From positions 1-64,000 of the forward strand of contig CACJFS010000006.1 in the NCBI GenBank assembly GCA_902592715.1: a stretch of 64,000 bases of DNA. Direction: 5' to 3'. Shown here one piece after another: positions 13,622 through 32,002 of the stretch (position 1 is its first letter; each line of letters starts with the position of its first letter). Made by a program: the position numbers and the translations under genes. Under the pieces are notes generated by a model. It was not told where the DNA came from, made no database searches, and saw only the letters and a program-made list of their open reading frames with translations. Source of the stretch: an uncultured Pelagibacteraceae bacterium. Lineage in GTDB: Bacteria > Pseudomonadota > Alphaproteobacteria > Pelagibacterales > Pelagibacteraceae.

Positions 13622-15607
13622 TTATTTTCTTAATTGAAGAATAAATATTGGCAACACTAAAAATAAACCAATAATTGATGAACCTAAACCAGGCGCAATA
13701 AATAGTAATGAAATAATTCCTAAATACCATCTTTGAAACGTAGAAACTTTTTTAAATAGATAGCCTGTAAATCCAATTCCAATCAAACCAATTCCAATCA
13801 TCGCAGAAATTAAAGTTACAAAAAAATCATAAAAATTAAACCCTTGAGCAACTAATAATAGAGATGGTGAATAGACAAATACAAAAGGCACAAGGGCTTT
13901 AGCAATTCCTAATCTAAATGCTGTATTACCTGTAGTAAATGGATTTGATCCAGCAATTCCAGCGGCAGCATATGCTGCAAGAGCAACTGGCGGTGTTATG
14001 TCAGCTAAGACACCATAATAAAAGACAAAAAAGTGAGAAACAATGGGCTCAATTTGTAATTGAGTGAGAGCAGGCGCAGCAACAGCAACTAGTATTATGT
14101 ATGTTGCAGTAGTTGGTACTCCTGTACCCATAAATATGCATGATATTGCAATCAATATAAGTGAGAAAAATAATGTTAGATCGGCTAAAGAAAAATAATC
14201 AAAAGGTAAAAAGTTTAAGAAGAAACCTCCAATATCACCAGCCGTTTGGATTACTACATAACCTAATCTAAAACCAACACCTGTTAGTGTAACTACACCA
14301 ACTATAATCCCAATTGATGTTGCAGCAGCCCCAACTGCTAAAGTATTCTTTGCACCTCTTGCAAGACACTCAAATAAGTCGTTAAAAGTAAGTCTATTTT
14401 TTTTTCTAATAAATCCAATAACGACACATGCAATTATTCCATTTACTGCAGCATAATCTGGAGTCCGACCAATTAAAATTAAATATACCAAGATAAATAA
14501 TGGAACTATTGCAAGCCAATTGTCTTGTATAATTTTTATAAATTTAGGAACCTCACTTTCGTTTAAGCCTCTAAGTCCTAATTTTTTTGCCTCTAAATGA
14601 ACCATTACAAAAATTCCAAAATAGTGAAGCAGTGCTGGAATTAATGCAGCTGCTAAAATATCCCTTAAAGGTAATTCTAAATATTCCACCATAATAAATG
14701 CGGCAGCCCCTAAAATAGGTGGAGTTATTTGTCCGCCAGTAGATGCTGTAGCTTCCACAGCTCCAGAAAAATGTGGGGGATATCCAACTTTTTTCATTGC
14801 AGGTATTGTTAAAGATCCAGTTGTTACTGTATTTGCAATTGAGGAACCAGATATGGTTCCTAAAAATGCCGAAGAAAATATTGCAACTTTTGCTGGTCCT
14901 CCAGAGTATCGTCCAGCTATTACCATTGCTAAATCAATAAATAATTGTCCTAGTCCAATACGTGTTGCAAGCACGCCAAACAAAATAAATAAAAAAACAT
15001 ATTGGGCCATAACACCAACAGCGATCCCATAAATGCCTTGATTGGTTATATAAATATGATTTACAAAACCAGCCCAGCTACTGCCTCCATGTTTTAAAGC
15101 TCCAGGAAAAATAGGACCATAAAGTGCGAAAATCATAAATATTACGCATATTAATGGCAATGTGTATCCAATAGACCTTCTTGCTGCCTCAAGAGTCAAA
15201 ATTATAAGAATTGATCCCATTATAACCTCCGTGCTTGATGGATTTCCTACTCTGCTAGCTAATATTTCGGGAGGCAATAAGGGCAAATAAAGTGCGGTTA
15301 TGACAACTAAAATTGAAAAAATAATATCTATTATTGGAACTTTCCTTTTTGATTTGTCATCAGAAAAACTTTTCCAATTATAAAATAGGAATACTAGACC
15401 AACTACAAAGGAGATATGAATGCCTCTATGAAGAATATCTCTAATTGTTCCAAATCCAGAAGCATAAAAATGGTAAATTGACATTGCAACTAATGCAACA
15501 AACGTCAATGATTTAAGGAAATTTTTTAATTTTCTTTCGTTGCTTTTTATTTCAAACTTTTCTTCAAGTTTTGAAACCTCTTCAGGGGAAATATTAAATT
15601 GAGACAT
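13622..15607 (-). CDS. TRAP transporter fused permease (4TM/12TM, TAXI-associated)
   Basis: 661-aa polytopic protein with DctM-like motifs (GTGVPTTATYIILVAVAAPAL; GAVEATASTGGQITPPILGAAAFIM). Confidence 0.92.
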   Translation of the reverse strand: MSQFNISPEEVSKLEEKFEIKSNERKLKNFLKSLTFVALVAMSIYHFYASGFGTIRDILHRGIHISFVVGLVFLFYNWKSFSDDKSKRKVPIIDIIFSILVVITALYLPLLPPEILASRVGNPSSTEVIMGSILIILTLEAARRSIGYTLPLICVIFMIFALYGPIFPGALKHGGSSWAGFVNHIYITNQGIYGIAVGVMAQYVFLFILFGVLATRIGLGQLFIDLAMVIAGRYSGGPAKVAIFSSAFLGTISGSSIANTVTTGSLTIPAMKKVGYPPHFSGAVEATASTGGQITPPILGAAAFIMVEYLELPLRDILAAALIPALLHYFGIFVMVHLEAKKLGLRGLNESEVPKFIKIIQDNWLAIVPLFILVYLILIGRTPDYAAVNGIIACVVIGFIRKKNRLTFNDLFECLARGAKNTLAVGAAATSIGIIVGVVTLTGVGFRLGYVVIQTAGDIGGFFLNFLPFDYFSLADLTLFFSLILIAISCIFMGTGVPTTATYIILVAVAAPALTQLQIEPIVSHFFVFYYGVLADITPPVALAAYAAAGIAGSNPFTTGNTAFRLGIAKALVPFVFVYSPSLLLVAQGFNFYDFFVTLISAMIGIGLIGIGFTGYLFKKVSTFQRWYLGIISLLFIAPGLGSSIIGLFLVLPIFILQLRK

Positions 15608-15611
15608 AATA

Positions 15612-15639
15612 ATGCCCTAGATCTTTAGATCTAGGGCAT
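15612..15639 (-). promoter_or_regulatory. Perfect intercistronic hairpin between TAXI receptor and TRAP permease genes
   Basis: atgccctagatct-tt-agatctagggcat, 13-bp perfect inverted repeat. Confidence 0.85.
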
Positions 15640-15665
15640 AATATATATAGTGTATACTTATAAAA

Positions 15666-16673
15666 TTAATTTATAAGTCCCGCTTCTTTATAGAACTTTT
15701 CTGCACCAGGATGTAACGGCACACCCACTCCAGAAAGAGCAGATTCAGGTGTTATTGTTTTACCTTTGGCATGACCAACATCCATCAGCTTCCTAGACTC
15801 TTTATTCCATAAAGCTTTAGTAATTTGGTAGATAAGTTCATTATCTTCTTTTGCAGAAGTAAACCATTGAGCACCTACTGCTACAGTATTCACTTCATCA
15901 ACACCTTCGTAAGTTCCTGAAGGAATTGGACTTTGTGAGAAAAAACCATATTTTGAAGTTAATGCTTTAGCTCCTGCACCATCTATAGGAACTAATTTTA
16001 CATCAACTGCAGATGCTAACTCAACTATGGCCCCTGTTGGGAAACCCGCTACAACAAAAATTGCATCAACTTTACCATTTCTTAATGCATCGGTAGCTGC
16101 TTTACCTTTTAAAGCTTCAGCTTTTACGTCACTAGTACTTAAACCATTAGATTCTAAAATTAATTTAGCATCAACATACGTACCAGATCCAGGCTCATCG
16201 AGTGAAACTCTTTTACCCTTTAAATCTTTAACAGAATTAATTTTGCTTTTTTTAAGCGCAACTAAATGAATGTGTTCTTGAAAAAGTGCTGCGATAGTTC
16301 TTAAATCTTTTGCTGGTTCTTTTCCTTCCATAGTTCCAGTACCAGTATAAGCCCAATAAGCAACGTCAGACTGTGCAAATCCTGAATTTCTCAAACCTGA
16401 AATAATAGCATTTACATTATCTACTGATCCTCTTGATGAAACAGCAGATGCAATTAAGTTAGGAACTCCACAACTTCCACCTTTTCCGCATTCTCTTGAT
16501 CCTGGCGGTTTAGAAATTGCATTAGCAATCATTCCACCAACTGGATAATAAGTATAAGCTGTTCCTCCTGTACCAATTGTAAAAAATTTTAGTTCTTGAG
16601 CAAATGATTTACCTGACAAACCAAGTGTCAGAAGTAGTATCATTAGAGAACTTTTAAATAAGTTTTTAATCAT
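15666..16673 (-). CDS. TAXI-family TRAP transporter solute receptor
   Basis: Signal peptide then FFTIGTGGTAYTYYPVGGMIANAIS, TAXI receptor signature. Confidence 0.93.
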   Translation of the reverse strand: MIKNLFKSSLMILLLTLGLSGKSFAQELKFFTIGTGGTAYTYYPVGGMIANAISKPPGSRECGKGGSCGVPNLIASAVSSRGSVDNVNAIISGLRNSGFAQSDVAYWAYTGTGTMEGKEPAKDLRTIAALFQEHIHLVALKKSKINSVKDLKGKRVSLDEPGSGTYVDAKLILESNGLSTSDVKAEALKGKAATDALRNGKVDAIFVVAGFPTGAIVELASAVDVKLVPIDGAGAKALTSKYGFFSQSPIPSGTYEGVDEVNTVAVGAQWFTSAKEDNELIYQITKALWNKESRKLMDVGHAKGKTITPESALSGVGVPLHPGAEKFYKEAGLIN

Positions 16674-16749
16674 TTTCTCTCCAATTTATTAATTAATGTT
16701 ACTATTAAATATTAATCAATTATTATTGTCTATATAAATTTAGTGGTAT

Positions 16750-18708
16750 TTATGGTTTCTTAAGTTCATCCAAATTTTTAAATTCATTTAGGATATTTGG
16801 ATTTATTAGAGCTTGAATATTTTTTATTTTATTTCCCTCAATAGTATTTCTAACAGCAATCTCAACTATTTTTCCATTTTTTGTTCTTGGTATATCCGAG
16901 ACCTCAATTATTTTTTTGGGAACATGCCGTGGGGATGCATCTAAACGTATAGCATTTTTTAAGTTTAAAGATAAATCTTCACTTAACGACTTAGGTTTCT
17001 TAAGAACAACAAATAATATAATTCTCACATCATTATCCCATTTCTGGCCTATAACTATTGATTCTTTAACTTCTTTAAAATTATCAACTACAGAATATAT
17101 CTCAGCAGTGCCTAATCTTGCTCCACCAGGATTTAGTGTAGCGTCTGATCTTCCATAAATTACATAACCTCCGTTAGATTTTCTTTCGGCAAAATCTCCA
17201 TGATGCCAAACATTTTTATATTTTTTGAAGTATGCACTCTTATATTTTTCATTATTCTTATCATTCCAAAAAAGTTTTGGCATTGAGGGAAAAGGCGATT
17301 TACAGACTAATTCCCCTTTTTGATTTATTAAAGATTTTCCTCTTTCAGAAAAAACATCAGTATTCATTCCTAATCCATTATTCTGAATCTGTCCCCTGTA
17401 AACTGGTGAATATATATTTCCTAATACAAAGCACGATACTAAGTCTGTTCCACCTGCAATAGATGCTAAATGAACATTTTTTTTTATATTTTTGTAAACA
17501 TAATCAAAACCCTCAGAGGATAAGGGTGATCCAGTAGAGCAAATAGTTTTGAGATACTTTAGTTTAAATTTTTTTTTAATATTTACGTTAAGCTTTTTTA
17601 ATTGGTCAATATACTTAGCGCTTATGCCAAACAATGAGATTTTTTCTTTCTCAGCTATTTTAAATAGTAAATCACTTCTTTTATGCATTGGAAACCCGTC
17701 AAATAGAATAATAGAAGCTTTTGATGCCAAAAAAGTCATTAACCAATTCCACATCATCCATCCACAGGTAGTAAAATAAAAAACATTGTCTCCTGGCTTA
17801 ACATTACAGTGAAGTTTATGTTCTTTTAAATGTTGCAGCAAAACACCACCCGCTCTATGACATATGCATTTTGGTTTCCCTGTTGTTCCGCTTGAATATA
17901 AAATAGCTAGCTCTTTATCAAAATCAAATTTTTTAAATGTAATTTTGCTTTTTACTTTGCGCTTTAATTTATTGAAATAAAAGATTTTTATCCCCTTAAT
18001 TTTTTTTTGTTTTAAATTTTTTTTGCCTGGATAATTGGTAATTAAAACACTTTTAATAGATTTAATTTTTTTAAGAATAGTTGGTAATCTTTCAAGGACA
18101 TTTATTTCTTTACCATTATAATAATACCTATCAGTTATGATTAATAATTTTGGTTTTATTTGAGAAAATCTCTCTATAACTCCTTGTGTACCAAAATCTG
18201 GTGAACAAGAGGACCAGATAGCACCTATTGCACTAGTTGCAATAAAACTTTCAACAGTTTCAATTTGGTTTGCTGTATATGCTGCTATTCTATCTTTATC
18301 TTTAATTTTATTATCTTTAAAAAATTTTACTAATTTTAAAGTATTATTATTTAATTCCTTCCAGGATTTTTCTTCCCTATATCCATTTTCACTAATAAAA
18401 GTTACGGCTTTCGTAGTATCACTTTTCGATAATAAGTTTTCTGCATAATTTAACTTGGATTTTACTAAAAATTTACTTTTAATAATTTCTTTGGGAAAAT
18501 GAAATTTATCATTTTTAATACCTTTAATATTTGAAAATTCCCAAATTGAAGTCCAAAAAAGCTTTGGGTTTTTGATTGTCCAATTAAACAGTTTTTTATA
18601 ATTTTTTTCGGGTTTATAATTAAATTTATTTGATAAAAATTTTTCAAAATCAAATAAATTAGATTTTGATTTTGTTTTAGAATTAGCTTCCCATAGTTTT
18701 TGAGGCAT
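16750..18708 (-). CDS. Acetoacetyl-CoA synthetase
   Basis: 652-aa AMP-forming enzyme; SSGTTGKPKCICH, YGRSDATLNPGGARLGTAEIY, N-terminal AacS-type domain. Confidence 0.9.
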   Translation of the reverse strand: MPQKLWEANSKTKSKSNLFDFEKFLSNKFNYKPEKNYKKLFNWTIKNPKLFWTSIWEFSNIKGIKNDKFHFPKEIIKSKFLVKSKLNYAENLLSKSDTTKAVTFISENGYREEKSWKELNNNTLKLVKFFKDNKIKDKDRIAAYTANQIETVESFIATSAIGAIWSSCSPDFGTQGVIERFSQIKPKLLIITDRYYYNGKEINVLERLPTILKKIKSIKSVLITNYPGKKNLKQKKIKGIKIFYFNKLKRKVKSKITFKKFDFDKELAILYSSGTTGKPKCICHRAGGVLLQHLKEHKLHCNVKPGDNVFYFTTCGWMMWNWLMTFLASKASIILFDGFPMHKRSDLLFKIAEKEKISLFGISAKYIDQLKKLNVNIKKKFKLKYLKTICSTGSPLSSEGFDYVYKNIKKNVHLASIAGGTDLVSCFVLGNIYSPVYRGQIQNNGLGMNTDVFSERGKSLINQKGELVCKSPFPSMPKLFWNDKNNEKYKSAYFKKYKNVWHHGDFAERKSNGGYVIYGRSDATLNPGGARLGTAEIYSVVDNFKEVKESIVIGQKWDNDVRIILFVVLKKPKSLSEDLSLNLKNAIRLDASPRHVPKKIIEVSDIPRTKNGKIVEIAVRNTIEGNKIKNIQALINPNILNEFKNLDELKKP

Positions 18709-18840
18709 AAAAAAATATATTTAATTTTTTGAAATTATGATAACCTTAAAACATTAAATAATAAAAATGAGAACTTTTTCCTCAATGATTCGGACTAGTT
18801 TTAGCCTATTTTTGTTCTTTAGAGGTAACAATATATAGTA

Positions 18841-21354
18841 TTGGTAAAAAAAATCATACCAAAGCTAGAAATGACAAAAAATAAAATCACAGCAGTTCTT
18901 GGACCCACAAATACAGGAAAAACCTTCTTGGCAATAGAGACTATGCTTTCTTTTGATTCGGGCATGATTGGCTTCCCTTTAAGACTTTTAGCAAGAGAAG
19001 TTTATGACAAAATAATAAAAAAAGTAGATCCATCAAAAGTTGCTTTGATTACAGGTGAAGAAAAAATTATACCAATAAACGCAAAATATTTTCTTTGTAC
19101 TGTTGAGTCTATGCCATTGGATAAAAGTTTAGAATTTGTAGGTATTGATGAAATACAAATGTGTAATGACCATGAGAGAGGTCATATTTTTACAGATAGA
19201 TTGTTACATATGAGAGGTGAAAAACTCACTATGCTCATGGGTTCAAATTCTGTAAAAAAAATTATCCAAAAACTTGATGAAGATATTGAATTTAAAAACA
19301 GAGAAAGGCTCTCTAAATTATCTTTTGGTGGTCACAAAAAAATTTCAAGAATAGAGAGAAAAAGCGCTGTAATTGCTTTTTCTACTGAAGAAGTATACGC
19401 GATTGCAGAATTGATAAGACGTCAAAAAGGTGGGGCTGCTATTGTTATGGGCTCACTTAGCCCCAAAACAAGAAACTCTCAAGTAAGTTTATATCAATCT
19501 GGAGATGTTGATTATCTAGTTGCAACTGATGCAATTGGAATGGGAATAAATATGGATCTAGATAATGTTTATTTTTCAAATTTGAAAAAATTCGATGGAA
19601 AAAAACTTAGAAATTTAAATATTTCAGAAATTGGACAAATTGCAGGAAGAGCGGGAAGATATTTAAACGATGGTATATTTGGTACAACAGGTGAATGTAA
19701 AGAAATAGGACCTGAAGAAATTGAGGCATTAGAAACACACAATTTTCCAGATATACAAATGATCTTTTGGAGAAATTCAAAATTAAATTTTGCTAATAAA
19801 GTTTTTTTATTAAAATCTTTAGAAGAAAAACCTCAGAAAGACTGGCTTAGAAGAATAAGTGAATGCCAAGATGAAAAAGTGTTGAAATATTTTCTGAAAG
19901 AGGCTCCAAATATAAAAATTGAGGATAATACTGAAATTTTACAAATACTCTGGGAATGTTGCCAAATACCTGATTTTGTAAAAAAAACTTATGGTCATCA
20001 CTTTGAAGTTGTAAGTAAAATTTTTAGTTTCTTAACAAGTAGAGATAAAAAAGTTCCAAATCACTATATGAAGGAACAGCTATCCTTACTTGATAAATTG
20101 GATGGAAATGTCGACTCTTTATCAAACAGAATTGCTAACGTTAGAACATGGGCTTATGTATCAAATAAAGCAAATTGGGTTGAAAATCAGGACTACTGGA
20201 TAGAAAGAGCTAAAAACCTTGAAGATAAACTCTCAGATAGACTTCACGAAGAATTAACAAAAACTTTTATTGATAAAAGAGCAAGTGTTTTAGCTAGAGG
20301 TTTAAAACAAGATATATTGTTTGAAACAGAGATTATTAATAATGAAGAGGTAATGATTAATGAACAGTACATTGGTCGTTTAAAAGGTTTAAGATTAGAA
20401 TTAGATCTAAAGGTTGATACATTAGATTCTGACGTAAAATCCTTAAAAAAAGCTGCAAGACAAAACGTTGTTCCCGAAATTATAAAAAGAATAACACAAA
20501 TTATTGATACTGGTTTAATTGAACTAAAAGATGATTTTAAAATTTATTGGAACAGCAACCAAATAGCAAAATTAATTCCAGGTTCAGACTATTTAAATCC
20601 GCAAATACAGTTGACTATTGATGAAATGATTGAGAATAGTGAAAAATCAAGACTTAATAATTATTTACAGAACTGGCTAAATAATAAAATTGATTCAGAG
20701 TTAAAAAGTCTAATAGATTTAAAAAATGTTAAAGATAATAATTCAGAACTAAGAGCTCTAGCATATCATCTTTACGAAAATAATGGAGTTGTAAAAAGAG
20801 ATGAAGTTTTAAATTATCTAAATAAACTTAATCAAGATGAAAGAAAAAAATTGAGAAACTTAGGTGTTAAGTTTGGAAGGTATCATATTTTTTTATTTAA
20901 ATTATTTAAACCAAGTTCTGTATCATTAAGAATTTTATTATGGAAAAACTTTAGTGAGAAAAATTTTGATTTCTCGCCGCCAACTTACGGATTGAACTTT
21001 TTAGAAGAAAAGAAAATATTAAATAAAAATCTAATGCTTTTATGTGGTTTTGAAAAATTTGAAAATTTGTATGTTAGAATAGATATTTTAGAAAGGTTAT
21101 TTTTAATGATTTTTAACACTAAATCAGAAGATAAAATTAAAGAGATCAAGTTAATTCCTGAAATGCTGAATTTGTTAGGTTGTAATAAAGAAAATTTTGT
21201 GAAATTAATAAAAAAAATGAATTACAAAACTTATGAGAAAGATAAAAATCTTCACTTTAAATATATTCCATTTAAAAAAGTAATTAAAAAAGATACAAAG
21301 AAAAATATTAATGACAATCCATTTAAAGTACTTTCACAACTTAACTTAAAATAA
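18841..21354 (+). CDS. Suv3-like superfamily 2 RNA helicase
   Basis: ITAVLGPTNTGKTFLAIETML Walker A, GIDEIQM motif II, GRAGRY motif VI; resembles mitochondrial SUV3-type helicases. Listed start is TTG; ATG at 18871 is an alternative. Confidence 0.87.
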   Translation: MVKKIIPKLEMTKNKITAVLGPTNTGKTFLAIETMLSFDSGMIGFPLRLLAREVYDKIIKKVDPSKVALITGEEKIIPINAKYFLCTVESMPLDKSLEFVGIDEIQMCNDHERGHIFTDRLLHMRGEKLTMLMGSNSVKKIIQKLDEDIEFKNRERLSKLSFGGHKKISRIERKSAVIAFSTEEVYAIAELIRRQKGGAAIVMGSLSPKTRNSQVSLYQSGDVDYLVATDAIGMGINMDLDNVYFSNLKKFDGKKLRNLNISEIGQIAGRAGRYLNDGIFGTTGECKEIGPEEIEALETHNFPDIQMIFWRNSKLNFANKVFLLKSLEEKPQKDWLRRISECQDEKVLKYFLKEAPNIKIEDNTEILQILWECCQIPDFVKKTYGHHFEVVSKIFSFLTSRDKKVPNHYMKEQLSLLDKLDGNVDSLSNRIANVRTWAYVSNKANWVENQDYWIERAKNLEDKLSDRLHEELTKTFIDKRASVLARGLKQDILFETEIINNEEVMINEQYIGRLKGLRLELDLKVDTLDSDVKSLKKAARQNVVPEIIKRITQIIDTGLIELKDDFKIYWNSNQIAKLIPGSDYLNPQIQLTIDEMIENSEKSRLNNYLQNWLNNKIDSELKSLIDLKNVKDNNSELRALAYHLYENNGVVKRDEVLNYLNKLNQDERKKLRNLGVKFGRYHIFLFKLFKPSSVSLRILLWKNFSEKNFDFSPPTYGLNFLEEKKILNKNLMLLCGFEKFENLYVRIDILERLFLMIFNTKSEDKIKEIKLIPEMLNLLGCNKENFVKLIKKMNYKTYEKDKNLHFKYIPFKKVIKKDTKKNINDNPFKVLSQLNLK

Positions 21355-21779
21355 TGTTTAATATTTTTAAAAAAGAAGAAACAGAAAAAGAAAATAATCA
21401 TCCATCGATAACGGCAGTGGCTTGTTTGCTAATTCATTCAGCAAGAATTGATGAAAATTATACAGATAAAGAAAAAAAAATTGTTAAAGATGCAATTATT
21501 GAAATGGGAGCTGAAACTAAAAATATTGATAAAATAATACAAGATGCTGAAGAAAAAGAAAAAGACGCAAATCAAATTCTTGATTTTACAAGAGAAATTA
21601 AAAATATTAATGAAGAGGACAAAAAAATTATTATAGAAGCATTGTGGGATATTATATATTCGGATGAAGATGCTGATATGTATGAAACAAACCTAATGAG
21701 AAGACTATCTGGATTACTTTATTTAGACTCAAAAGTTGTAGGTGATATTAAAGAGAAAGTTCGCCAAAAAAAAACATGA
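21354..21779 (+). CDS. TerB-family protein
   Basis: [31 protein letters not shown] ... [27 protein letters not shown], TerB-like helical acidic pattern. Confidence 0.8.
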
Positions 21780-22105
21780 CATATTTAGTAAATGATAAAT
21801 GCATTAAATGTAAATTGATGGATTGTGTTGAGGTATGTCCAGTGGATTGCTTTTACGAAGGTAAGAATATGCTTGTAATTAAACCTGATGAGTGTATAGA
21901 TTGTGGCGTTTGTGAGCCAGAATGTCCAGTAGACGCGATAATATCGGATAATGATGATATCAGTAAAAAATGGTTAGAAGTAAATAAAAAATATGCAGAC
22001 TTATGGCCGAACATTAGTGAAAAAAAAGATCCACCAGTGGATCATGAACAATTTAAAGACGTAAAAGATAAGTATGAAAAATATTTTAAAGAAAATCTTG
22101 AATAA
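21776..22105 (+). CDS. fdxA: 7Fe-type ferredoxin
   Basis: [29 protein letters not shown] and [16 protein letters not shown]. Confidence 0.95.
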
Positions 22106-22901
22106 CAAAAAGACTAAAAAAGTAGTTAAGAAAAAATCTAAAATAGCAAAAAAAATTGATAAGCAAAAAAAAATTTCTAAAGTAATTAAAGCCAAAAAAA
22201 TAACAAAAGAAATAAATAAAAAAAAAATAATAAAAGATAATAAAAAAAAAGATAAAATTGAAATAAAGGGCGATCCATTAAGAATACCTAAGAATAACGA
22301 GCAAAAACCTGAAATTAAAAAAGTAAAAAAGCAAGATACAGAAAAAAGATTGTTTAAAGTCAAAGAGTACGTTGTTTATCCAAAACATGGGGTGGGACAA
22401 ATTATAGAAACTAAAAAAATTAATATAGGTGGGATTGATGTTGAAACATATATTCTTAAATTTGAAAAAGATAAGGCAAATGGAATGGTGCCTGTAAATA
22501 AACAATCTCATTTAAGACCATTGGCAACAATAAATCAGATAAATAAATGTGTAAGTATTTTAAAAAGTAAGCCGAAAATTAAACGATCTATGTGGAGTAG
22601 AAGAGCCCAAGAGTATGAGGCTAAAATATCTTCGGGTAAAATTTATGATTTAGCAGAAGTTGTTAGAGATCTAAATAAAGGAGATGATATTATGATCGAT
22701 CAATCTTACAGTGAAAGGCAATTATTTGAAAAGGCTTATGAAAGACTGCTTACTGAGTTTCATATAGTGATGGGGTCAAGTTTAGAAGATGCACAAAAAA
22801 AGCTTGATAAAGCTTTAAAGAGAAATTTAGAAAAACAGGCACAGAAAGTTGAGGAAAAACCAGTAGCTGAAGAGCCAGTTAATCAAGAACTAACAGAATA
22901 A
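22074..22901 (+). CDS. CarD-family transcription regulator with long Lys-rich N-terminal extension
   Basis: CarD domain ([37 protein letters not shown]) preceded by ~90 Lys-rich residues; start overlaps fdxA, so the exact N-terminus is uncertain. Confidence 0.85.
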
Positions 22902-22906
22902 AAAAA

Positions 22907-22939
22907 AACGCTCCCCACGCAAGCGCTATGAGAAGCGTT
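22907..22939 (-). terminator. Intrinsic terminator of the 27-aa basic peptide gene
   Basis: Minus strand AACGCT...AGCGTT stem followed by a run of T (plus-strand A run 22900-22908). Confidence 0.7.
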
Positions 22940-22961
22940 ATCAGTTAAAAAGAATACTAAA

Positions 22962-23045
22962 CTATCTTCTTTTTTTCTTCTTAGCTTTTTTCTTAGCTTT
23001 TTTCTTAGTTTTCTTTTTAGCAGCTTTCTTTTTTCTTTTAGCCAT
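22962..23045 (-). CDS. 27-aa Lys/Arg/Ala micropeptide MAKRKKKAAKKKTKKKAKKKAKKKKRR
   Basis: Not in the ORF track (too short). Minus-strand GGGAG SD 6 nt before ATG; promoter-like TTGACA-17-TAAAAA, 5' hairpin, and terminator all in place. Confidence 0.75.
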   Translation of the reverse strand: MAKRKKKAAKKKTKKKAKKKAKKKKRR

Positions 23046-23066
23046 CTTTAGCTCCCTTTTTTTATA

Positions 23067-23087
23067 AACGAATCTTTATGATTCGTT
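23067..23087 (-). promoter_or_regulatory. 5'-UTR hairpin of the basic micropeptide gene
   Basis: aacgaatc-tttat-gattcgtt, 8-bp perfect inverted repeat just downstream of the predicted TSS. Confidence 0.65.
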
Positions 23088-23096
23088 AATACCTAA

Positions 23097-23125
23097 TTTT
23101 TATTTTTTTTGAATAGTTATGTCAA
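23097..23125 (-). promoter_or_regulatory. Sigma70-like promoter for the micropeptide gene
   Basis: Minus strand TTGACA (23125-23120), 17-nt spacer, TAAAAA (23102-23097). Confidence 0.5.
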
Positions 23126-23233
23126 ACATATAATTTTTGAAAATAATTTAAAAAAAATTATTTTTTAAATTTTTTTTATTAACATAAAAAAAGTTAAATA
23201 AATCGCTATTAATAAAGTGTTTTCAAAAATATT

Positions 23234-24934
23234 TTAATAAAGTTTTTCAAATTCATTTTGATATTTCTGAATAATTTTATATCTTTTAAGTTTTAAAGTT
23301 GGGGTTAACATTCCATTTTCAATTGAAAATTTTTCATTAATAATAAAAAATTTTTTTATATTTTCTATTTTAGAAAGATTTTTATTTATTTTTTCAACCT
23401 CTTTTTGTATTTGTTCATTAGTTATTTTAGTATTTTCTTCAGATATAACTAATAGAGCAACCAAATACGGTTTGTTATCTCCATAAACAACTGATTGATC
23501 AATGAATGTGGAATTTAATAATTCATTTTCAATTTTAACTGGAGAAATGTTATCCCCACCTGGTGTAATTAAAATATCTTTTTTTCTATCAGTTATTTTT
23601 AAATATCCGTTTTCAAAAATTCCTATATCTCCTGTATATAACCATCCATCTTTTAAAACTTTATTTGTTTCTTCCTCATTCTTCCAATAACCTAACATCA
23701 CATTTTCACCTTTTACTAATATTTCTCCATCTTGAGCTATTTTTACCTCGTTACCTTTGAATGGTGGTCCTACAGTCTCTACTCTAATGTCGTCTATGGG
23801 GTTACAACTTACAACTGGAGAGGTTTCAGTTAACCCATAACCTTGTAAGGTAGGAAGACCTATAGCATTCAAAAAAATACCAACTTCTTTATCAAGGGCT
23901 CCTCCACCCGAAACAAAAGTTTTAAGCTTTCCTCCAAATTGACTTTTGATTTTTTTTCTTACAATTTTTTCTAAAATATTATCTATTAATTTTTCTAAAA
24001 TTGTTAAAGATTGTTTATTAATCTTTTTAGTACCTAGCTCTAACATTTTTAATATTAATTTTTTTTTTAAACCGGTTGATTTATTAAAACTTGAATTAAT
24101 CTTTTGAAATAAATTTTGATAAAACCTTGGCACTGCAGTCATTAATTGTGGTCTACAATCATTCATATTTTTAATTAATTTCTCTATACTTTCTGCATAA
24201 AATATTTTTGCTCCAACACTAATTTGAACAAATTGAACAGTATGTTCATAAGAATGTGAAAGAGGTAACCAGGTTAAAAATCTAGTCTGATCTTCTATTA
24301 AAGGTTTCAATATATCAAGTGCTCCATCACAATTATTTAAAATACCACCATGACTTAATATAACTCCTTTTGGGTTACCTTGTGTTCCTGAAGTATAAAT
24401 AATACAAGCTGGATCATTTCTTTTAATTGTTAAAACTGGGACAATTAAATCTTGATAGTCTAAATTAGAAAATAATTTATTAACATTAATATAAGTGTCA
24501 GTATCTATATCTAATTTTTCAAAAGAAAATATTTTAACTACGAAACTTTTTTTTTTTATGATTTCTTTAACTTTATTAAATTGTTCTTGATTAGAAACAA
24601 ATATTAATTTCGGATTACAATTATCGATTATATATTCATAATCCTTTTCAGCATAAGTTGTATAAGCTGGAACAGTTATCGCTTCAGATAACATTACCGA
24701 AAGATCAGTTATAAACCACTCAGGTCTATTCTCAGATATTAATAAACATCTGTCACCTTTATTTGTATATTTTTTTATTTCTGAAGAGAGTTTTTTAATT
24801 GAATGAAATGTTTTTTCCCATGTAAAATTATTATTAGTATCTTTTAAGGATGTTAAAAGAATATTATTTTTTTTTTGTTTTTTATAACTAATAAAAAATA
24901 GTTCGACTAAATTATTAATATTTTGTGTACTCAT
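23234..24934 (-). CDS. Long-chain acyl-CoA synthetase (AMP-forming)
   Basis: IIYTSGTQGNPKGVILSHGG, LQGYGLTETSPVVS, YTGDIG, DRKKDILITPGGDNISP. Confidence 0.92.
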   Translation of the reverse strand: MSTQNINNLVELFFISYKKQKKNNILLTSLKDTNNNFTWEKTFHSIKKLSSEIKKYTNKGDRCLLISENRPEWFITDLSVMLSEAITVPAYTTYAEKDYEYIIDNCNPKLIFVSNQEQFNKVKEIIKKKSFVVKIFSFEKLDIDTDTYINVNKLFSNLDYQDLIVPVLTIKRNDPACIIYTSGTQGNPKGVILSHGGILNNCDGALDILKPLIEDQTRFLTWLPLSHSYEHTVQFVQISVGAKIFYAESIEKLIKNMNDCRPQLMTAVPRFYQNLFQKINSSFNKSTGLKKKLILKMLELGTKKINKQSLTILEKLIDNILEKIVRKKIKSQFGGKLKTFVSGGGALDKEVGIFLNAIGLPTLQGYGLTETSPVVSCNPIDDIRVETVGPPFKGNEVKIAQDGEILVKGENVMLGYWKNEEETNKVLKDGWLYTGDIGIFENGYLKITDRKKDILITPGGDNISPVKIENELLNSTFIDQSVVYGDNKPYLVALLVISEENTKITNEQIQKEVEKINKNLSKIENIKKFFIINEKFSIENGMLTPTLKLKRYKIIQKYQNEFEKLY

Positions 24935-24941
24935 AAATTTT

Positions 24942-25028
24942 TGGTGGGCAAAGAGAGAATCGAACTCTCACAGTATTGCTACTATTGGATTTTGAGTCCA
25001 ACGCGTCTACCAGTTCCGCCATTCGCCC
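24942..25028 (-). tRNA. tRNA-Leu (CAA)
   Basis: Reverse complement GGGCGAATGGCGGAACTGGTAGACGCGTTGGACTCAAAATCCAATAG...GAGAGTTCGATTCTCTCTTTGCCCACCA; long variable arm, anticodon CAA, encoded CCA. Confidence 0.95.
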
Positions 25029-25034
25029 AAAGCT

Positions 25035-25694
25035 TTGCAAATTTTAACTAATAGTATTAAATCATTTAATATATTAAAAGAAAATATGTTTAAAGAACTG
25101 TTCAATAAAACTATTAAACTTGCAGGTCACAAAAGATCTAAATCTATATTAGGTATTATATCTTTTATAGAAAGTTTTATATTTCCAATACCTCCAGATG
25201 TTTTAATAATTCCTATGACTATAGCTCGAAAGCATGAGTGGTTTCGAATTGCTTTAATTGCAACTTTAGGATCTGTTTTAGGAGCCTGTCTTGGTTACTT
25301 TATTGGATATGTTTTTTTTAATGAAATTGGCCTTAAAATTTTTGAAATTTATGGTGTAGATGATTCATCATTTTTAAAAGATAAAGTATCTTCAGAGGGA
25401 GGGGTCATAGCATGGATTACTCTTTTGGCAATTGCTGGTTTTTCGCCAGTACCATTTAAATTACTTACAATTACAAGTGGTTTTATAAATTTTAATATAT
25501 TGTATTTTGTTATAATTTCTATTTTGACCAGAGGTTCACGTTTTTTTTTAATAGCATTCTTAATTGGAAACTTTGGAACAACAATGAAAAAAATTATTGA
25601 AAAAAAAATTCTTAAGTTTTCAATTTTTTTATCAATTATTTTAATTATTTTTGCTTATTTTGTTTATAAATTTTTAAATAATTTTATAAATTAA
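25035..25694 (+). CDS. YqaA/DedA-like membrane protein
   Basis: SFIESFIFPIPPDVLIIPMTIAR and GSVLGACLGYFIGY motifs; real start probably ATG at 25086. Confidence 0.85.
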   Translation: MQILTNSIKSFNILKENMFKELFNKTIKLAGHKRSKSILGIISFIESFIFPIPPDVLIIPMTIARKHEWFRIALIATLGSVLGACLGYFIGYVFFNEIGLKIFEIYGVDDSSFLKDKVSSEGGVIAWITLLAIAGFSPVPFKLLTITSGFINFNILYFVIISILTRGSRFFLIAFLIGNFGTTMKKIIEKKILKFSIFLSIILIIFAYFVYKFLNNFIN

Positions 25695-25696
25695 AT

Positions 25697-26176
25697 ATGA
25701 TCCGGCTGCCAAATAGAAAAAATTTCTATTTAATTATTTTAATTATTTCTATGATTTCGATTATTTCGGCTTTGTATATTGAATATATACTTCAGTATGA
25801 ACCGTGTAAGTTATGCATTTATCAAAGATTACCCTACATGGCAGCAATATTTATAAGTTTTATTGGATTTAATTATTTTTCCAATGACAAAATTTTAATC
25901 ATTTTAATAATGATATTTGTATTGAGTGCAATAATTTCTGGATATCATTTTGGAATTGAGAATAATTTATTTGATGAACTTTCTGCTTGTGTAAATGACT
26001 CATTAGATATTTCAAATAAGTCAAAATTATTAGAGTCTCTTAATCAAAGTATGCCAGTTAACTGCAAAGATGCTACTTTTAAAATTCTTGGAGTTTCGCT
26101 AGCGGCAATAAATACAATTTTATCAGTTTTAATTGTAATTTTTTCTATTAGAACATTGACTTATGAAAAAAACTAA
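25697..26176 (+). CDS. Disulfide bond formation protein DsbB family
   Basis: 4 TM segments, EPCKLCIYQRLPYM (CxxC) motif. Confidence 0.85.
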   Translation: MIRLPNRKNFYLIILIISMISIISALYIEYILQYEPCKLCIYQRLPYMAAIFISFIGFNYFSNDKILIILIMIFVLSAIISGYHFGIENNLFDELSACVNDSLDISNKSKLLESLNQSMPVNCKDATFKILGVSLAAINTILSVLIVIFSIRTLTYEKN

Positions 26177-26696
26177 TAAAAGAAAATTAGAAGAGTTTAT
26201 AAGAGTAGATCATGCTGGAGAAAGAGGCGCAATCAAAATTTATGAAGGTCAACTGCTTGCTTTAAATACCTTGATAAAAAATGACGATTTAAAAGAAAAA
26301 ATCAGTGAAATGAAAAAACATGAGGAGGAACACTCAAATTTTTTTGAAGATGAAATAGAAAAAAGAAATATAAAACCAACTAAATTACTACCACTATGGG
26401 ATTTGCTTGGGTTAAGTCTTGGATTTGGTTCAACAATACTTGGAAAAAAAGCTGCAATGTTATGTACAGCCTCTGTTGAAGAAGTAATTGATGAGCATTA
26501 TAAGAGCCAAATTGATCAAATAGAGATGGATGAAAAGGCTTTAAAAGAAAAGATTATAAAATTTAGACAAGATGAATTGGACCATAAAGATATAGCCTAC
26601 GGGGAAGGGGCTACAAAAAAAGGTCTTTATTCGATTATGGATAAGGTAATTAAAACTGGTTCTAAGGTTGCTATAAAAATTTCTGAAAAAATTTAG
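26163..26696 (+). CDS. coq7: Demethoxyubiquinone hydroxylase (COQ7)
   Basis: IRVDHAGERGAIKIYEGQ ... HEEEHSNFF ... EEVIDEHY ... DELDHKD di-iron motifs. Confidence 0.95.
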   Translation: MKKTNKRKLEEFIRVDHAGERGAIKIYEGQLLALNTLIKNDDLKEKISEMKKHEEEHSNFFEDEIEKRNIKPTKLLPLWDLLGLSLGFGSTILGKKAAMLCTASVEEVIDEHYKSQIDQIEMDEKALKEKIIKFRQDELDHKDIAYGEGATKKGLYSIMDKVIKTGSKVAIKISEKI

Positions 26697-27281
26697 TTAC
26701 GGTTCAAGTTCAACATCCCAATACAAATAGTCCATCCAACTTTTATGTAAAAAGTTTGGTGGAAAATTCTTACCATTTTTATGAAGGTCCTCTGTGGTAG
26801 GTTGAAAAGGCCATTGGTTTAATGTCATACCTGAATTCTTTATGAGTCTTCCTCCTTTTTTAACATTACAGGACGAACAAGCTGTCACAACATTATCCCA
26901 ATTAGTTTTTCCACCTTTGGATCTTGGGAGTAAGTGATCAAACGTTAATTCATTTTTGCTACCACAATATTGGCAGCTAAATTTATCTCTTAAAAATACA
27001 TTAAATCGAGTGAAGTTGGGATTAGATTGTGGTCTTATATATGATTTGAGAGCAATTACACTTGGAAGTTTCATGCTAAAAGAAGGGCTTCTGATTTGTC
27101 TATCATAATAACTTACAATCGAAACTCTATCTAAGAAAACAGATTTAATTGAATCTTGCCAACTCCACAATGAAAGTGGATAATAACTTAAAGGTCTATA
27201 ATCTGCATTCAAAACTAATGCAGGACATTTTTCTAAAGAAATACTTTGATCAGACAACTCAATCATTCTTAAAACATACAT
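26697..27281 (-). CDS. HNH endonuclease family protein
   Basis: FSCQYCGSKNELTFDHLLPRSKGGKTNWDNVVTACSSCNVKKGGR. Confidence 0.9.
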   Translation of the reverse strand: MYVLRMIELSDQSISLEKCPALVLNADYRPLSYYPLSLWSWQDSIKSVFLDRVSIVSYYDRQIRSPSFSMKLPSVIALKSYIRPQSNPNFTRFNVFLRDKFSCQYCGSKNELTFDHLLPRSKGGKTNWDNVVTACSSCNVKKGGRLIKNSGMTLNQWPFQPTTEDLHKNGKNFPPNFLHKSWMDYLYWDVELEP

Positions 27282-27327
27282 TAAATATATTTTTTATCAA
27301 TACATCTAATATTATATTAAATATTTA

Positions 27328-27984
27328 TTAACTAATTAATTTTTTTTTAATAAAGTTTAATGCCGCACTTGATGCTTCGATAGGTATGTGGTGATCACAA
27401 TTTTTAATCATTAAAGTTTCAATATTAATTTTATTTCTAATAAAAAAATCCTCAGCTTCTAGTAAATTATTTGGCGGCACAATTGGATCATTTTCACCAT
27501 GTATCAATAAAATATCAGTTTTAGTTTTTATTCTTGTAGATAGATCTTTCATGTTTATAATTCTTCCAGAAAACCCCACAATACAACTAAATTCTTTTTC
27601 TGATGTCAGACCAATATTTAATGACATCATGCATCCTTGACTAAAACCAGAAATGCAAATTTGTGAATATTCTAAATTAAAATAATCACTTACCTCTAAA
27701 ATATAATTCTTAAGAACGTTTTCTGCCTTTTTCGACTCTTGAAGTGTATATTCGGGATCCTCATTATTTAAATCAAACCATTGAAACCCTGTTGGATTTA
27801 TACTGCATACTTCATGTGCATCAGGACATAAAAAAACTGTATTTTTCAAAAATCTTTTCCAATTTAAGGTAAGCATACTTATGTCTTTGCCATCACCTCC
27901 ATATCCATGGAGTAAAATTACTGCACTCTTAACTTCCTCGTTGTTTTCTGGTTTTATTATTGTTGTATTTAAAGAAAATTTCAT
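27328..27984 (-). CDS. Alpha/beta hydrolase (phospholipase/carboxylesterase family)
   Basis: AVILLHGYGGDGKD, ISGFSQGCMMSL, IHGENDPIVP, CDHHIP. Confidence 0.9.
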   Translation of the reverse strand: MKFSLNTTIIKPENNEEVKSAVILLHGYGGDGKDISMLTLNWKRFLKNTVFLCPDAHEVCSINPTGFQWFDLNNEDPEYTLQESKKAENVLKNYILEVSDYFNLEYSQICISGFSQGCMMSLNIGLTSEKEFSCIVGFSGRIINMKDLSTRIKTKTDILLIHGENDPIVPPNNLLEAEDFFIRNKINIETLMIKNCDHHIPIEASSAALNFIKKKLIS

Positions 27985-28511
27985 AGGTTTTTTGCTAACC
28001 AGTCAAGTAAAGATTGATCATTAAAATCAATGTAGCCAACAATTCTTCCAACTTCAAAACCGTTTCGGTCTATTAAAATTGTTGTGGGTAATCCTCTAAG
28101 TTTAAATAGCTGTGAAAACTCTGGTCCAGATCCTGTAAATACATCTAAATTCTTAATTTTGATTTCGTCAAAAAACTCTTTTGATTTTTTATAACTGTCA
28201 CCACCAATATTAATTGGGATTATATTAATATTTTTAAATTCACTTAAAGTTTTAATTTTATCTAAAGATGGCATTTCTTTTTTACAAGGAGCGCACCAAG
28301 TAGCCCAGAAATTTATTATTAATGGGTTTGATTTATAATTATTTAAACTTACTTTTTGACCGTCAGATTTAATAAATTCTATATTTTCAATTTTTTTTTT
28401 GTCTTTATATACTATAAGATTCTTAATTTCTGGACGTTCTATTGAATATGAGACGCTAGATGATATTAAGTAAAATATTATTATAAGATAATTTAAAAAA
28501 ATGAATTTCAT
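27981..28511 (-). CDS. TlpA-like thioredoxin-fold protein
   Basis: Signal peptide, NFWATWCAPCKKEMPSLDKI, GLPTTILID. Confidence 0.92.
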   Translation of the reverse strand: MKFIFLNYLIIIFYLISSSVSYSIERPEIKNLIVYKDKKKIENIEFIKSDGQKVSLNNYKSNPLIINFWATWCAPCKKEMPSLDKIKTLSEFKNINIIPINIGGDSYKKSKEFFDEIKIKNLDVFTGSGPEFSQLFKLRGLPTTILIDRNGFEVGRIVGYIDFNDQSLLDWLAKNL

Positions 28512-28534
28512 AAAATTTAAAATAATTAAATATC

Positions 28535-29923
28535 ATGGGAAAAAATAAAAACAATCAACCAATTTGGAATACTAGAATAAAAAAGGAATCAAAAAACCTT
28601 TTTAAAAAGGTTGGTGGATCAATAGCAATTGATAAAAGGTTATTCAGGGAGGATATTGAAGCTTCAATTGTACATGTCGAGATGCTGTTTAGACAAAAAA
28701 TTATAAATTTTAAAATTAAAAATAAAATAGTATGGGGTTTGAATAGAATTCAGAACGAAATTATAAAAAAAAAATTTATTTTTGATGATAAGCTTGAGGA
28801 TATCCATATGAATATAGAACACAGACTTTTTGAGCTGATTGGAGAGGACGCGGGATATATTCACACTGCAAGATCAAGAAATGATCAGGTTGTCACAGAT
28901 TTTAAAATTTGGTTAAGGAAAGCCAATAAAGAAATTGTTAAAAATATTGATATTACAGTTAAAAATATTTTAAAAAAAGCAGAAAAAAATGTTGAAACAA
29001 TTATGCCTGGTTTCACGCACCTAAAAAATGCACAACCAGTTTCCTTTGCTCATTATTTAATGGCTTACTTAGAAATGTTTAACAGAGATAAAAATAGATT
29101 TAAAAATAATTTAGAAAGTCTTAATGAAAGTCCACTTGGTGTGGCTGCTTTAACAGGTACTTCTTTTAAAATAGACAGATTTTACACTTCAAAAAAATTA
29201 GGTTTCCAAAGACCAACTAAAAACTCAATCGATACTGTTTCTGATAGAGATTTTGTAATTGATTTTCTTTATTCTTGTTCTGCATGTGCTGTTCACATTT
29301 CTAGGATTGCAGAGGAATTCATAATCTGGAATTCAGATGCTTTTAAACTTATTAATTTAAATGATAAAATTGTAACTGGATCGTCTATTATGCCTCAGAA
29401 AAAAAATCCTGATCCTCTAGAATATTTGAGAGGCAAAACAGGTTTCATGTTTGGAAATCTATTTTCTATGCTTACAACATTAAAAGGTTTACCTCTTTCT
29501 TATTTTAAGGATTTACAAGATGACAAAGAAATTGTTTTTAAATCGTTTGATCAATTAAAAAATTCCTTAATTATATTAAATGATGTTCTTAAAAATTTTT
29601 CACCAGATAAAAAAAGAATGATTGAACTTGCAGAAATTGGCTACATTACAGCAACTGATTTAGCAGATTACATGGTCAGAGAATTAAATTATCCATTTAG
29701 AAAAGCCTATTTGCAAACAGCTAAAATCATAAATTTTGCTGAAAAAAATAAAAAAAGACTGTCAGAACTCACTGTAAAAGAGATAAATAAAATTGAAAAA
29801 GGTTTAACAGCTGATGTTCTAAAAGTATTTGAACTAAAAAAATCTGTTAATTCTAAAGTTTCTTACGGTGGAACTTCTTTCGACAACATTAAGAAAATGA
29901 TATTAAGTTACAAAAAGAAATAA
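28535..29923 (+). CDS. argH: Argininosuccinate lyase
   Basis: HTARSRNDQV, TGSSIMPQKKNPDPLE signature. Confidence 0.97.
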   Translation: MGKNKNNQPIWNTRIKKESKNLFKKVGGSIAIDKRLFREDIEASIVHVEMLFRQKIINFKIKNKIVWGLNRIQNEIIKKKFIFDDKLEDIHMNIEHRLFELIGEDAGYIHTARSRNDQVVTDFKIWLRKANKEIVKNIDITVKNILKKAEKNVETIMPGFTHLKNAQPVSFAHYLMAYLEMFNRDKNRFKNNLESLNESPLGVAALTGTSFKIDRFYTSKKLGFQRPTKNSIDTVSDRDFVIDFLYSCSACAVHISRIAEEFIIWNSDAFKLINLNDKIVTGSSIMPQKKNPDPLEYLRGKTGFMFGNLFSMLTTLKGLPLSYFKDLQDDKEIVFKSFDQLKNSLIILNDVLKNFSPDKKRMIELAEIGYITATDLADYMVRELNYPFRKAYLQTAKIINFAEKNKKRLSELTVKEINKIEKGLTADVLKVFELKKSVNSKVSYGGTSFDNIKKMILSYKKK

Positions 29924-29925
29924 CT

Positions 29926-30090
29926 ATGATTAAAAAAATAACTTTAATTACTATGTGTCTAATTTTATTAACTTCATGTGGAAGAAAAAATGAGCCAAAA
30001 TATGAGGCATCATTAAATAATAATGTTATGAAATTAAATAATTTTGATAAAGTTTTTAAAATGCCAAAAAAAAATGAAATATATCAATAA
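29926..30090 (+). CDS. 54-aa LptM-like small lipoprotein
   Basis: MIKKITLITMCLILLTSCGRKNEPKYEASLNNN...; lipobox LLTSC; sits between argH and lysA and overlaps the lysA start; not in ORF track. Confidence 0.75.
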   Translation: MIKKITLITMCLILLTSCGRKNEPKYEASLNNNVMKLNNFDKVFKMPKKNEIYQ

Positions 30091-31288
30091 TATTTTTACA
30101 GTTGAAAAATCCAGACTCACTAAAGTAATTAAAAAATTTGAAACACCAATTTTTTGCTACTCTGAAAAAAAAATTAATGAAAATATAAGTGATTTTAAAA
30201 CAAGTTTTAAATCGTTTTCTCCAATCATATGTTTTTCAACGAAGTCAAACTGTAATCTAGAAATACTCAAACTAATTAAAAGAAGTGGATTGGGAGCTGA
30301 TGTTGTCTCAAAAGGTGAATTAATGATTGCACTTAAAGCAGGAATAACTTCCAAAAAAATTGTTTTTTCTGGAGTGGGTAAAACAAGGTCAGAATTGATT
30401 TATGCAATAGATAAAAATATTTTATTGATTAACTGCGAGTCAAAAAGTGAAATATTAGAAATAGAAAGTATAGCAAAATTTAAGAATAAAAAGGTAAATA
30501 TTGGAATTAGATTAAATCCAAATACAGATGCAAAAACAATTAAACAAATTTCAACTGGTAAAAAAGAAAATAAATTTGGTGTTAATGAAAAAACATTTAT
30601 TGAAGTTTCAAAATATATAAAGAGTTCAAAATTTTTAAATCTAAAATGTTTAAGTGTACATATTGGAAGTCAAATTCTAGATTATAAACCTTACCAAAAA
30701 ATGCTTAACGTCTTAGACAAATTAATAAAAAAAATTAACTTTAATTTTGAGTTTATAGATCTTGGTGGTGGTATGGGTATTGACTATAACAAAGACAATA
30801 AAAAATTTAATTATAAAAAATATAATGAAATTATTACTAATTTTTTAAAAAAGCATAAATCAAAAATTATTTTTGAACCTGGTAGATCAATTATAGGTGA
30901 TACCGCAATATTAATTTCAAAAATTATTTATATTAAAGAAAATTCTAAAAAAAATTTTATTATTATAGATGCAGCTATGAATGATTTTATGAGACCTGCG
31001 TTGTATGGAGCTAAGCACAGAATTATTCCATTAAAAAAAACTAATAATATTACTAAGAAAAGTTATGATTTTGTTGGTCCGATTTGTGAAACAACAGATA
31101 AATTTTTAACGACAAATAAATTTCAAAAATTAAATGAGAAAGATTATATCATTATTTGTGATGTAGGGGCATATGGCTCGTCGTTATCTTCAAATTATAA
31201 CATTAGACCAAAACCTGCTGAAATATTAATCAAAGGTTCAAAAATTAGTGTGATTAAAAAAAGACAAAGACTAAAAGATATAATTTAG
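30074..31288 (+). CDS. lysA: Diaminopimelate decarboxylase
   Basis: CFSTKSNCNLEILKLI (PLP Lys), HIGSQI, DLGGGMGIDY, EPGRSIIGDTAIL, CETTDKF; start set at ATG 30074 (listed 30044). Confidence 0.95.
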   Translation: MKYINNIFTVEKSRLTKVIKKFETPIFCYSEKKINENISDFKTSFKSFSPIICFSTKSNCNLEILKLIKRSGLGADVVSKGELMIALKAGITSKKIVFSGVGKTRSELIYAIDKNILLINCESKSEILEIESIAKFKNKKVNIGIRLNPNTDAKTIKQISTGKKENKFGVNEKTFIEVSKYIKSSKFLNLKCLSVHIGSQILDYKPYQKMLNVLDKLIKKINFNFEFIDLGGGMGIDYNKDNKKFNYKKYNEIITNFLKKHKSKIIFEPGRSIIGDTAILISKIIYIKENSKKNFIIIDAAMNDFMRPALYGAKHRIIPLKKTNNITKKSYDFVGPICETTDKFLTTNKFQKLNEKDYIIICDVGAYGSSLSSNYNIRPKPAEILIKGSKISVIKKRQRLKDII

Positions 31289-31291
31289 TTT

Positions 31292-32002
31292 TTGACAACA
31301 ATGATTAGAAAATTTCTATTTTTATTTTTTTTCTTTCTAGGTATATCTATAATTTCAATAATATTCCTTCCATCACTAGTTATGCCAACTAAAGTAGTTT
31401 TGTTTGGTGGAAAAATAATGGGAGTGTGGACTGCCATATGCCTTAAAACTTTTTTACAAACAAAAATTATTGTTAATGGAAAAGAAAATATAATCAAAGA
31501 TGAAAAATTTTTTATTGCTTGCTCTCACCAATCAATGTTTGAGACTTTTTACTTACAAACTATTTTTAATGCACCGATATTTATTTTAAAACAAGAGTTA
31601 ATCAAAATACCTATATTTGGGTGGTATTTGAAAAAGATAGGCTCAATTTCTATTAATAGAAATAAAATTAGCAAAGATAATTTAGGTTTAATTGATAAAA
31701 TAAAAAATTCTGTAAAAAATTCTGAAAGGCCTTTAATTATATTTCCACAAGGAACAAGAGTTTTACCAAACGATATAATTCCTTTTAAAAAAGGGGTTGG
31801 TAGAATTTATGAGGAATTAAAAATAAATTGCCAACCTGTAGCCATAAACTCTGGAAATGTTTGGCCAAAAAATTGGAAGTTATCTTCAAAACAAACTATA
31901 ATTGTTTCTATCATTCCAGTAGTAAAACCTGGAATGGGATCAGCAGACTTTACAAATTATATAGAAGATAAAATATATAATGAGTTAAATTCAATGAATT
32001 AA
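31292..32002 (+). CDS. plsC: 1-acyl-sn-glycerol-3-phosphate acyltransferase
   Basis: CSHQSMFETF (HX4D-like), FPQGTRV. Confidence 0.9.
   Translation: MTTMIRKFLFLFFFFLGISIISIIFLPSLVMPTKVVLFGGKIMGVWTAICLKTFLQTKIIVNGKENIIKDEKFFIACSHQSMFETFYLQTIFNAPIFILKQELIKIPIFGWYLKKIGSISINRNKISKDNLGLIDKIKNSVKNSERPLIIFPQGTRVLPNDIIPFKKGVGRIYEELKINCQPVAINSGNVWPKNWKLSSKQTIIVSIIPVVKPGMGSADFTNYIEDKIYNELNSMN

Follow-up and report, generated by a model that had tools for sequence, protein, structure and literature searches.

SAR11 bacteria (Pelagibacterales) are the most abundant bacteria of the ocean, dominate its surface and have very small, streamlined genomes. In one of them, an uncultured member of the Pelagibacteraceae, the DNA between carD and the next gene holds an open reading frame (ORF) for a strongly basic peptide of 27 amino acids (aa), which raises the question whether so short an ORF is a gene and what its product might do. 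The window, i.e. the whole stretch of DNA that was analysed, comprises 64,000 nucleotides. An earlier note made from its letters had proposed the promoter, hairpin, Shine-Dalgarno sequence, ORF and terminator listed here, an anatomy which proved right to the base on the minus-strand reading.

22074 to 22901, plus strand: carD, encoding a CdnL-type RNA polymerase-binding protein (PF02559 and PF21095), the convergent neighbour
22900 to 22938, minus strand: intrinsic terminator with a GC stem (22938-22908) and a T run to 22900, abutting the end of carD
22945 to 22960, minus strand: conserved segment of the 3'UTR, TTAGTATTCTTTTTAA, with complementarity to codons 9-14
23045 to 22962, minus strand: ORF of 27 codons for the 27-aa peptide MAKRKKKAAKKKTKKKAKKKAKKKKRR, net charge +20
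23052 to 23056, minus strand: Shine-Dalgarno (SD) sequence GGGAG, 6 nt from ATG, invariant in an alignment of 41 sequences
23067 to 23087, minus strand: 5'-terminal stem-loop AACGAATC-ATAAA-GATTCGTT, beginning some 3 nt from the predicted start of transcription
23097 to 23125, minus strand: promoter, assigned by sequence and conservation, with TTGACA (23125-23120), 17 nt and TAAAAA (23102-23097)
23234 to 24934, minus strand: AMP-binding acyl-CoA ligase-like gene (PF00501), upstream and on the same strand as the ORF

By sequence alone the TTGACA/TAAAAA promoter is unexceptional. Three promoter-like sites were observed in the sequence scan versus 1.6 expected in shuffles, TAAAAA matches TATAAT in 4/6 positions, and a promoter scanner favours an 18-nt spacer with AAAAAT (10/12 matches) over 17 nt with TAAAAA. 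Its support is therefore conservation: the elements TTGACATAAC..CAAAAAAAATAAAAA are kept in close relatives and TTGAC(A) is found in every genus read. A terminator scan gave one terminator-like site versus 0.1 in shuffles, and the stem is retained through U-A/U-G/C-G and C-G/U-A changes across relatives. In addition, the RNA folds 3 SD better than shuffled sequences. The entire cassette of 240 bp is conserved along its whole length in relatives, so its signals are not a product of chance. The ligase-like gene adjoins the polybasic gene in the first of the two Pelagibacterales families (f1) and has no match in the loci of the second (f2).

Selection on the peptide itself is seen in the codons. 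A scan of genome contigs for CarD yielded 80 Pelagibacteraceae loci, 73 of them informative; the other seven contigs stop before the ORF start. All 73 carry the ORF convergent to carD, always with 27 aa and interrupted by neither stops nor frameshifts, and the only replacements are between lysine and arginine, at residues 5, 24, 25 and 27. When mapped on a tree built from the carD core, the changes at codon positions 1, 2 and 3 amount to 0, 28 and 35, respectively; none turns Lys into Glu, and position 1 contributes none of the 12 variable sites. Since AAA/AAG can mutate with equal ease to GAA/GAG and to AGA/AGG, the lack of position-1 changes means selection on the peptide. The chance of this lack is (2/3)^63 when naively counted per change and 0.008 when just the 12 variable sites are counted. 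Codons 5 and 6 change together, which resembles a single event or recombination, so that the number of events is an upper bound.

A covariance model of the cassette matches 317 of 397 Pelagibacterales genomes, with all 13 genera (13/13) and both families represented. Fourteen non-matching genomes from the same genera were examined: 13 have no detectable carD and in one the contig stops inside carD. The non-matches are thus due to a missing carD or a broken contig, and true absence is ruled out for these 14. In both families the gene and carD converge wherever CarD could be read. The polybasic ORF is a protein-coding gene conserved order-wide in the Pelagibacterales; a stand-alone gene with full signals, as the earlier note had it, is borne out by frame integrity, codon-level constraint and the kept 5' hairpin. 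Outside the order, about 45 other alphaproteobacterial carD loci were examined over some 1.4 kb downstream of the gene, and no small basic ORF was found there. A degenerate pattern of the second-family N-terminus had no match in 289 genomes of the class, a sample which holds no second-family genome and hence no internal positive control. An origin outside the order was rejected on these two results, and since those carD loci offer no counterpart, the direction of length change (shrinkage or growth) is unrooted.

First-family peptides comprise 21-58 aa, among them MAKRRKKKKGKKKAKKRRRRR (21 aa), MPKRRKKAKKAKKKAKKKAKKRRRR (25), MAKRRKKAKKATKKKAKKATKKKGKKKKATKRRKKR (36) and an AKP-rich form of 58 aa. 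Those of the second family, of the type MEELKVIFAKARKKAKKKAAPKKRKKAAKRKPAKKKKAAPKK..., reach 40-99 aa and consist of repeats, e.g. MEDLKIIFAAAKKKAKKKAAPKKKKAAPKKKK..., with AAPKKK/AAKRKPAK units; within genus g10 the copy number of the repeats gives lengths of 40, 60, 76, 79 and 85 aa. Length differences among the members preserve the reading frame. Between genera the ORF drifts in sequence and length, while charge, Ala/Pro spacing and an Arg/Lys-rich C-terminus are retained. Fifty distinct peptides with 1,860 residues contain 67% K+R, no acidic residue past residue 3 and just four hydrophobic residues past residue 10, so that a hydrophobic core is lacking. A type I toxin-like peptide, a class in which a hydrophobic segment is expected, was ruled out because this segment is missing.

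Some features are restricted to particular lineages. Second-family members start with a conserved head, MEELKVIFAKA / MEDLKIIFAAA (L141-L148, L203-L207), which the first family lacks, and in L141 and L143-L147 their transcripts end in a tandem pair of terminator-like hairpins, the second of which adjoins carD. At one locus of genus g9 (L139; minus strand, about 1440-1780) a frameshift within eight consecutive A leaves the ORF with a hydrophobic tail, either through an assembly or sequencing error or as a real change.

Conservation concerns charge, Ala/Pro spacing and the basic C-terminus rather than a fold. That these persist while length and sequence drift is typical of a protein that binds nucleic acid electrostatically, such as chlamydial Hc2, and not of a folded protein. 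The product may well be a highly expressed, disordered polybasic peptide that binds nucleic acids, a miniature histone H1 tail packing DNA and/or RNA; we hold this reading with middling confidence. Judged from its anatomy, the gene would yield a short mRNA of high output, as it combines a strong promoter and a strong terminator with a good ribosome-binding site and a 5' hairpin that probably stabilises the RNA. Its peptide would most likely bind nucleic acid electrostatically and, once bound, would compact or neutralise DNA and/or RNA, serving the nucleoid or the RNA pool of SAR11 as a minimal H1 tail.

The histone H1-like proteins Hc2 (HctB) of chlamydiae and BpH1 of Bordetella likewise contain Lys/Arg repeats with Ala/Pro/Thr/Val and no acidic residues in the basic part, and change in length through in-frame gain and loss of repeats, in Hc2 lysine-rich ones (PMC2848022). 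In the SAR11 family, Lys/Arg plus Ala/Pro/Thr repeats without acidic residues were found among the 50 peptides, most clearly in the second family, and in-frame repeat gain or loss in g10 and f1. Differences exist as well: Hc2 and BpH1 have 165-237 aa versus 21-99 aa in SAR11, sequence homology is not detectable, and the SAR11 gene is tied to carD and a conserved leader, with no link to a developmental cycle. The earlier note had likened the composition to histone H1/HU-type tails; the longer second-family relatives do resemble H1 tails and Hc2, but an HU-like domain is absent. No Pfam or NCBIfam family, Hc1/Hc2 models included, was hit at cut-off by short or long members, low-complexity queries being hard for HMMER. 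Against the H1-tail reading, the fixed 27 aa of the window's clade would not obviously be needed for a loose role of charge only, and a polybasic composition is equally compatible with a ribosomal or RNA-chaperone role. It is a tentative and rather doubtful proposal that this genome-encoded, protamine- or H1-tail-like polycation, whose length differs between lineages of the order from up to 99 aa down to 21 aa, plays a major part in packing the SAR11 nucleoid and that no smaller histone-tail-like protein is known from a free-living bacterium.

Polybasic tails look as if they were common in the Pelagibacterales lineage. Long, variable Lys-rich N-terminal extensions occur on several unrelated SAR11 proteins (carD of the window, 22074-22901; L114, L122, L125, L131, L136), which include CarD itself, a RecA-like ORF and an ORF with an acetyl-CoA-synthetase-like start.

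Because the 27 aa are fixed in the window's clade, the main rival is an additional small protein of the ribosome, whose polybasic helix would occupy an rRNA pocket and which annotation would have overlooked for its size. The small-subunit peptide bTHX (Thx), basic and about 26 aa long, is similar in these respects, but carries Gly, Trp and Tyr as anchor residues, and aromatic or Gly anchors are absent from the SAR11 peptide. In size, charge and missing annotation the SAR11 peptide matches bS22, which has 61% K/R, is unannotated in Borrelia and was discovered solely by cryo-EM; like eL41 and mS38 it is tiny, very basic and unannotated in genomes (PMC10618245). Presence throughout the order, extreme conservation and, in the window's clade, a constant length would suit a component of the ribosome, and the structured leader is compatible with autoregulation. 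While the composition fits a basic helix of about 24-33 aa, the length does not stay constant: bS22 occupies a single pocket and is length-conserved, whereas the SAR11 peptides differ in length by more than a factor of four over the whole order (21 to 99 aa), and even a single genus spans 40 to 85 aa, a range which is hard to place in a single rRNA pocket. Furthermore, three members searched against the PDB gave no sequence match up to E 10, although composition filters may hide one. We regard a ribosomal peptide of the bS22 type as unlikely, if still the best of the alternatives.

A second rival places the function in the RNA, as a structured or dual-function small RNA in which the frozen sequence and the ORF-3'UTR pairing matter and the peptide is secondary. 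Synonymous sites are indeed nearly frozen. The five Ala codons of the ORF, all GCT, show no change versus 16-27 per conserved Ala codon in carD, and at Lys codons 7-18 there are 0.125 changes per codon versus 7.65 at conserved carD Lys codons. All 41 aligned sequences share the 5'UTR GGGAGCTAAAG and the 3'UTR TTAGTATTCTTTTTA without a change, and hairpin, 3'UTR and terminator are conserved. Part of this freeze is explained by avoidance of A-runs, the longest of which in the ORF has 7 nucleotides versus a mean of 10.1 with permuted Lys codons (P 0.016); the AAG share is 0.35 in the ORF versus 0.07-0.25 in neighbouring genes. Three non-exclusive causes can be named: very high expression and A-run avoidance probably contribute, and so, perhaps, does base pairing between codons 9-14 and the 3'UTR. 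In 23 of 26 representatives this pairing beats that of shuffled UTRs; a lineage's own UTR, however, outdoes the mean of foreign UTRs in just 18 of 26. The clearest coordinated change is found in L211/L215/L227, with UTR TTCTTTTTCTT opposite AAGAAAAAGAA. An ORF-3'UTR helix is thus suggestive only and was dropped as a proven structure, as own UTRs are not reliably better than those of other lineages. In a same-genus member of 35 aa (L120) the complementarity is gone and all other signals are retained.

The leader hairpin is the sole inverted repeat of its type in the genome. Its 5' arm CGAATC is present in all leaders read and it folds in each lineage; the 3' arm varies, with G-U variants and two-sided A-U to G-C changes in L228, L230 and L244, the hairpin itself being kept. 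Genera g2, g3, g4 and g8 have a longer leader stem, AATCAC...GTGAT, in some lineages a further stem, CUCC...GGAG, covers the SD, and the inner CCC/GGG stem of the f2 leader becomes CGC/GCG in L148. The SD may be sequestered in the leaders of the second family and of g2, g4 and g8, and the leader as a whole would fit an RNA-stabilising 5' hairpin with translational control in some lineages. A mini-hairpin over SD and start (AGCUA...UGGCU) was discarded, being disrupted in relatives with MPKRRKK.

Structured RNAs of Cand. P. ubique have been described (Meyer et al. 2009; PMC2704228); organism group and conserved intergenic elements are alike, but the carD intergenic region is absent from the GC-ranked Table 1 and from the motifs. 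Rfam at gathering score, over positions 15000-32000, matched a tRNA alone and nothing for this transcript. Codon position 1 is unchanged, replacements are K<->R only, the frame survives many length changes and charge is kept while the ORF sequence changes across genera. The codon-position result speaks against a pure regulatory RNA, and we consider it quite improbable that the RNA is the functional molecule.

A polycation directed at RNA and not packing DNA, i.e. an RNA chaperone, a former of condensates or a modulator of translation or the degradosome, draws on the same composition data as the H1-tail reading and has a precedent in Hc2, which binds RNA as well and represses translation (PMC2848022). 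Sequence cannot separate it from DNA binding, and we give it a small probability, lower than that of a functional RNA. A chance low-complexity ORF in AT-rich intergenic DNA, for which an A-rich region and a short ORF speak and nothing else, is ruled out for practical purposes by order-wide conservation of ORF, signals and position and by the codon-position result.

The gene measures less than 100 bp in much of the order, has no curated family match and is under the length limits of common gene callers; no real loss was seen in any lineage checked. Trypsin would probably cut the peptide into fragments of one to a few residues, which would make it invisible to trypsin-based proteomics. A literature search for published expression data or a SAR11 nucleoid study gave nothing relevant. 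If the peptide packs DNA, SAR11 possesses a compaction factor resembling a histone tail; if it is ribosomal, SAR11 ribosomes contain a previously unknown component. The series from 99 to 21 aa also shows what small size suffices for a functional polycationic protein.
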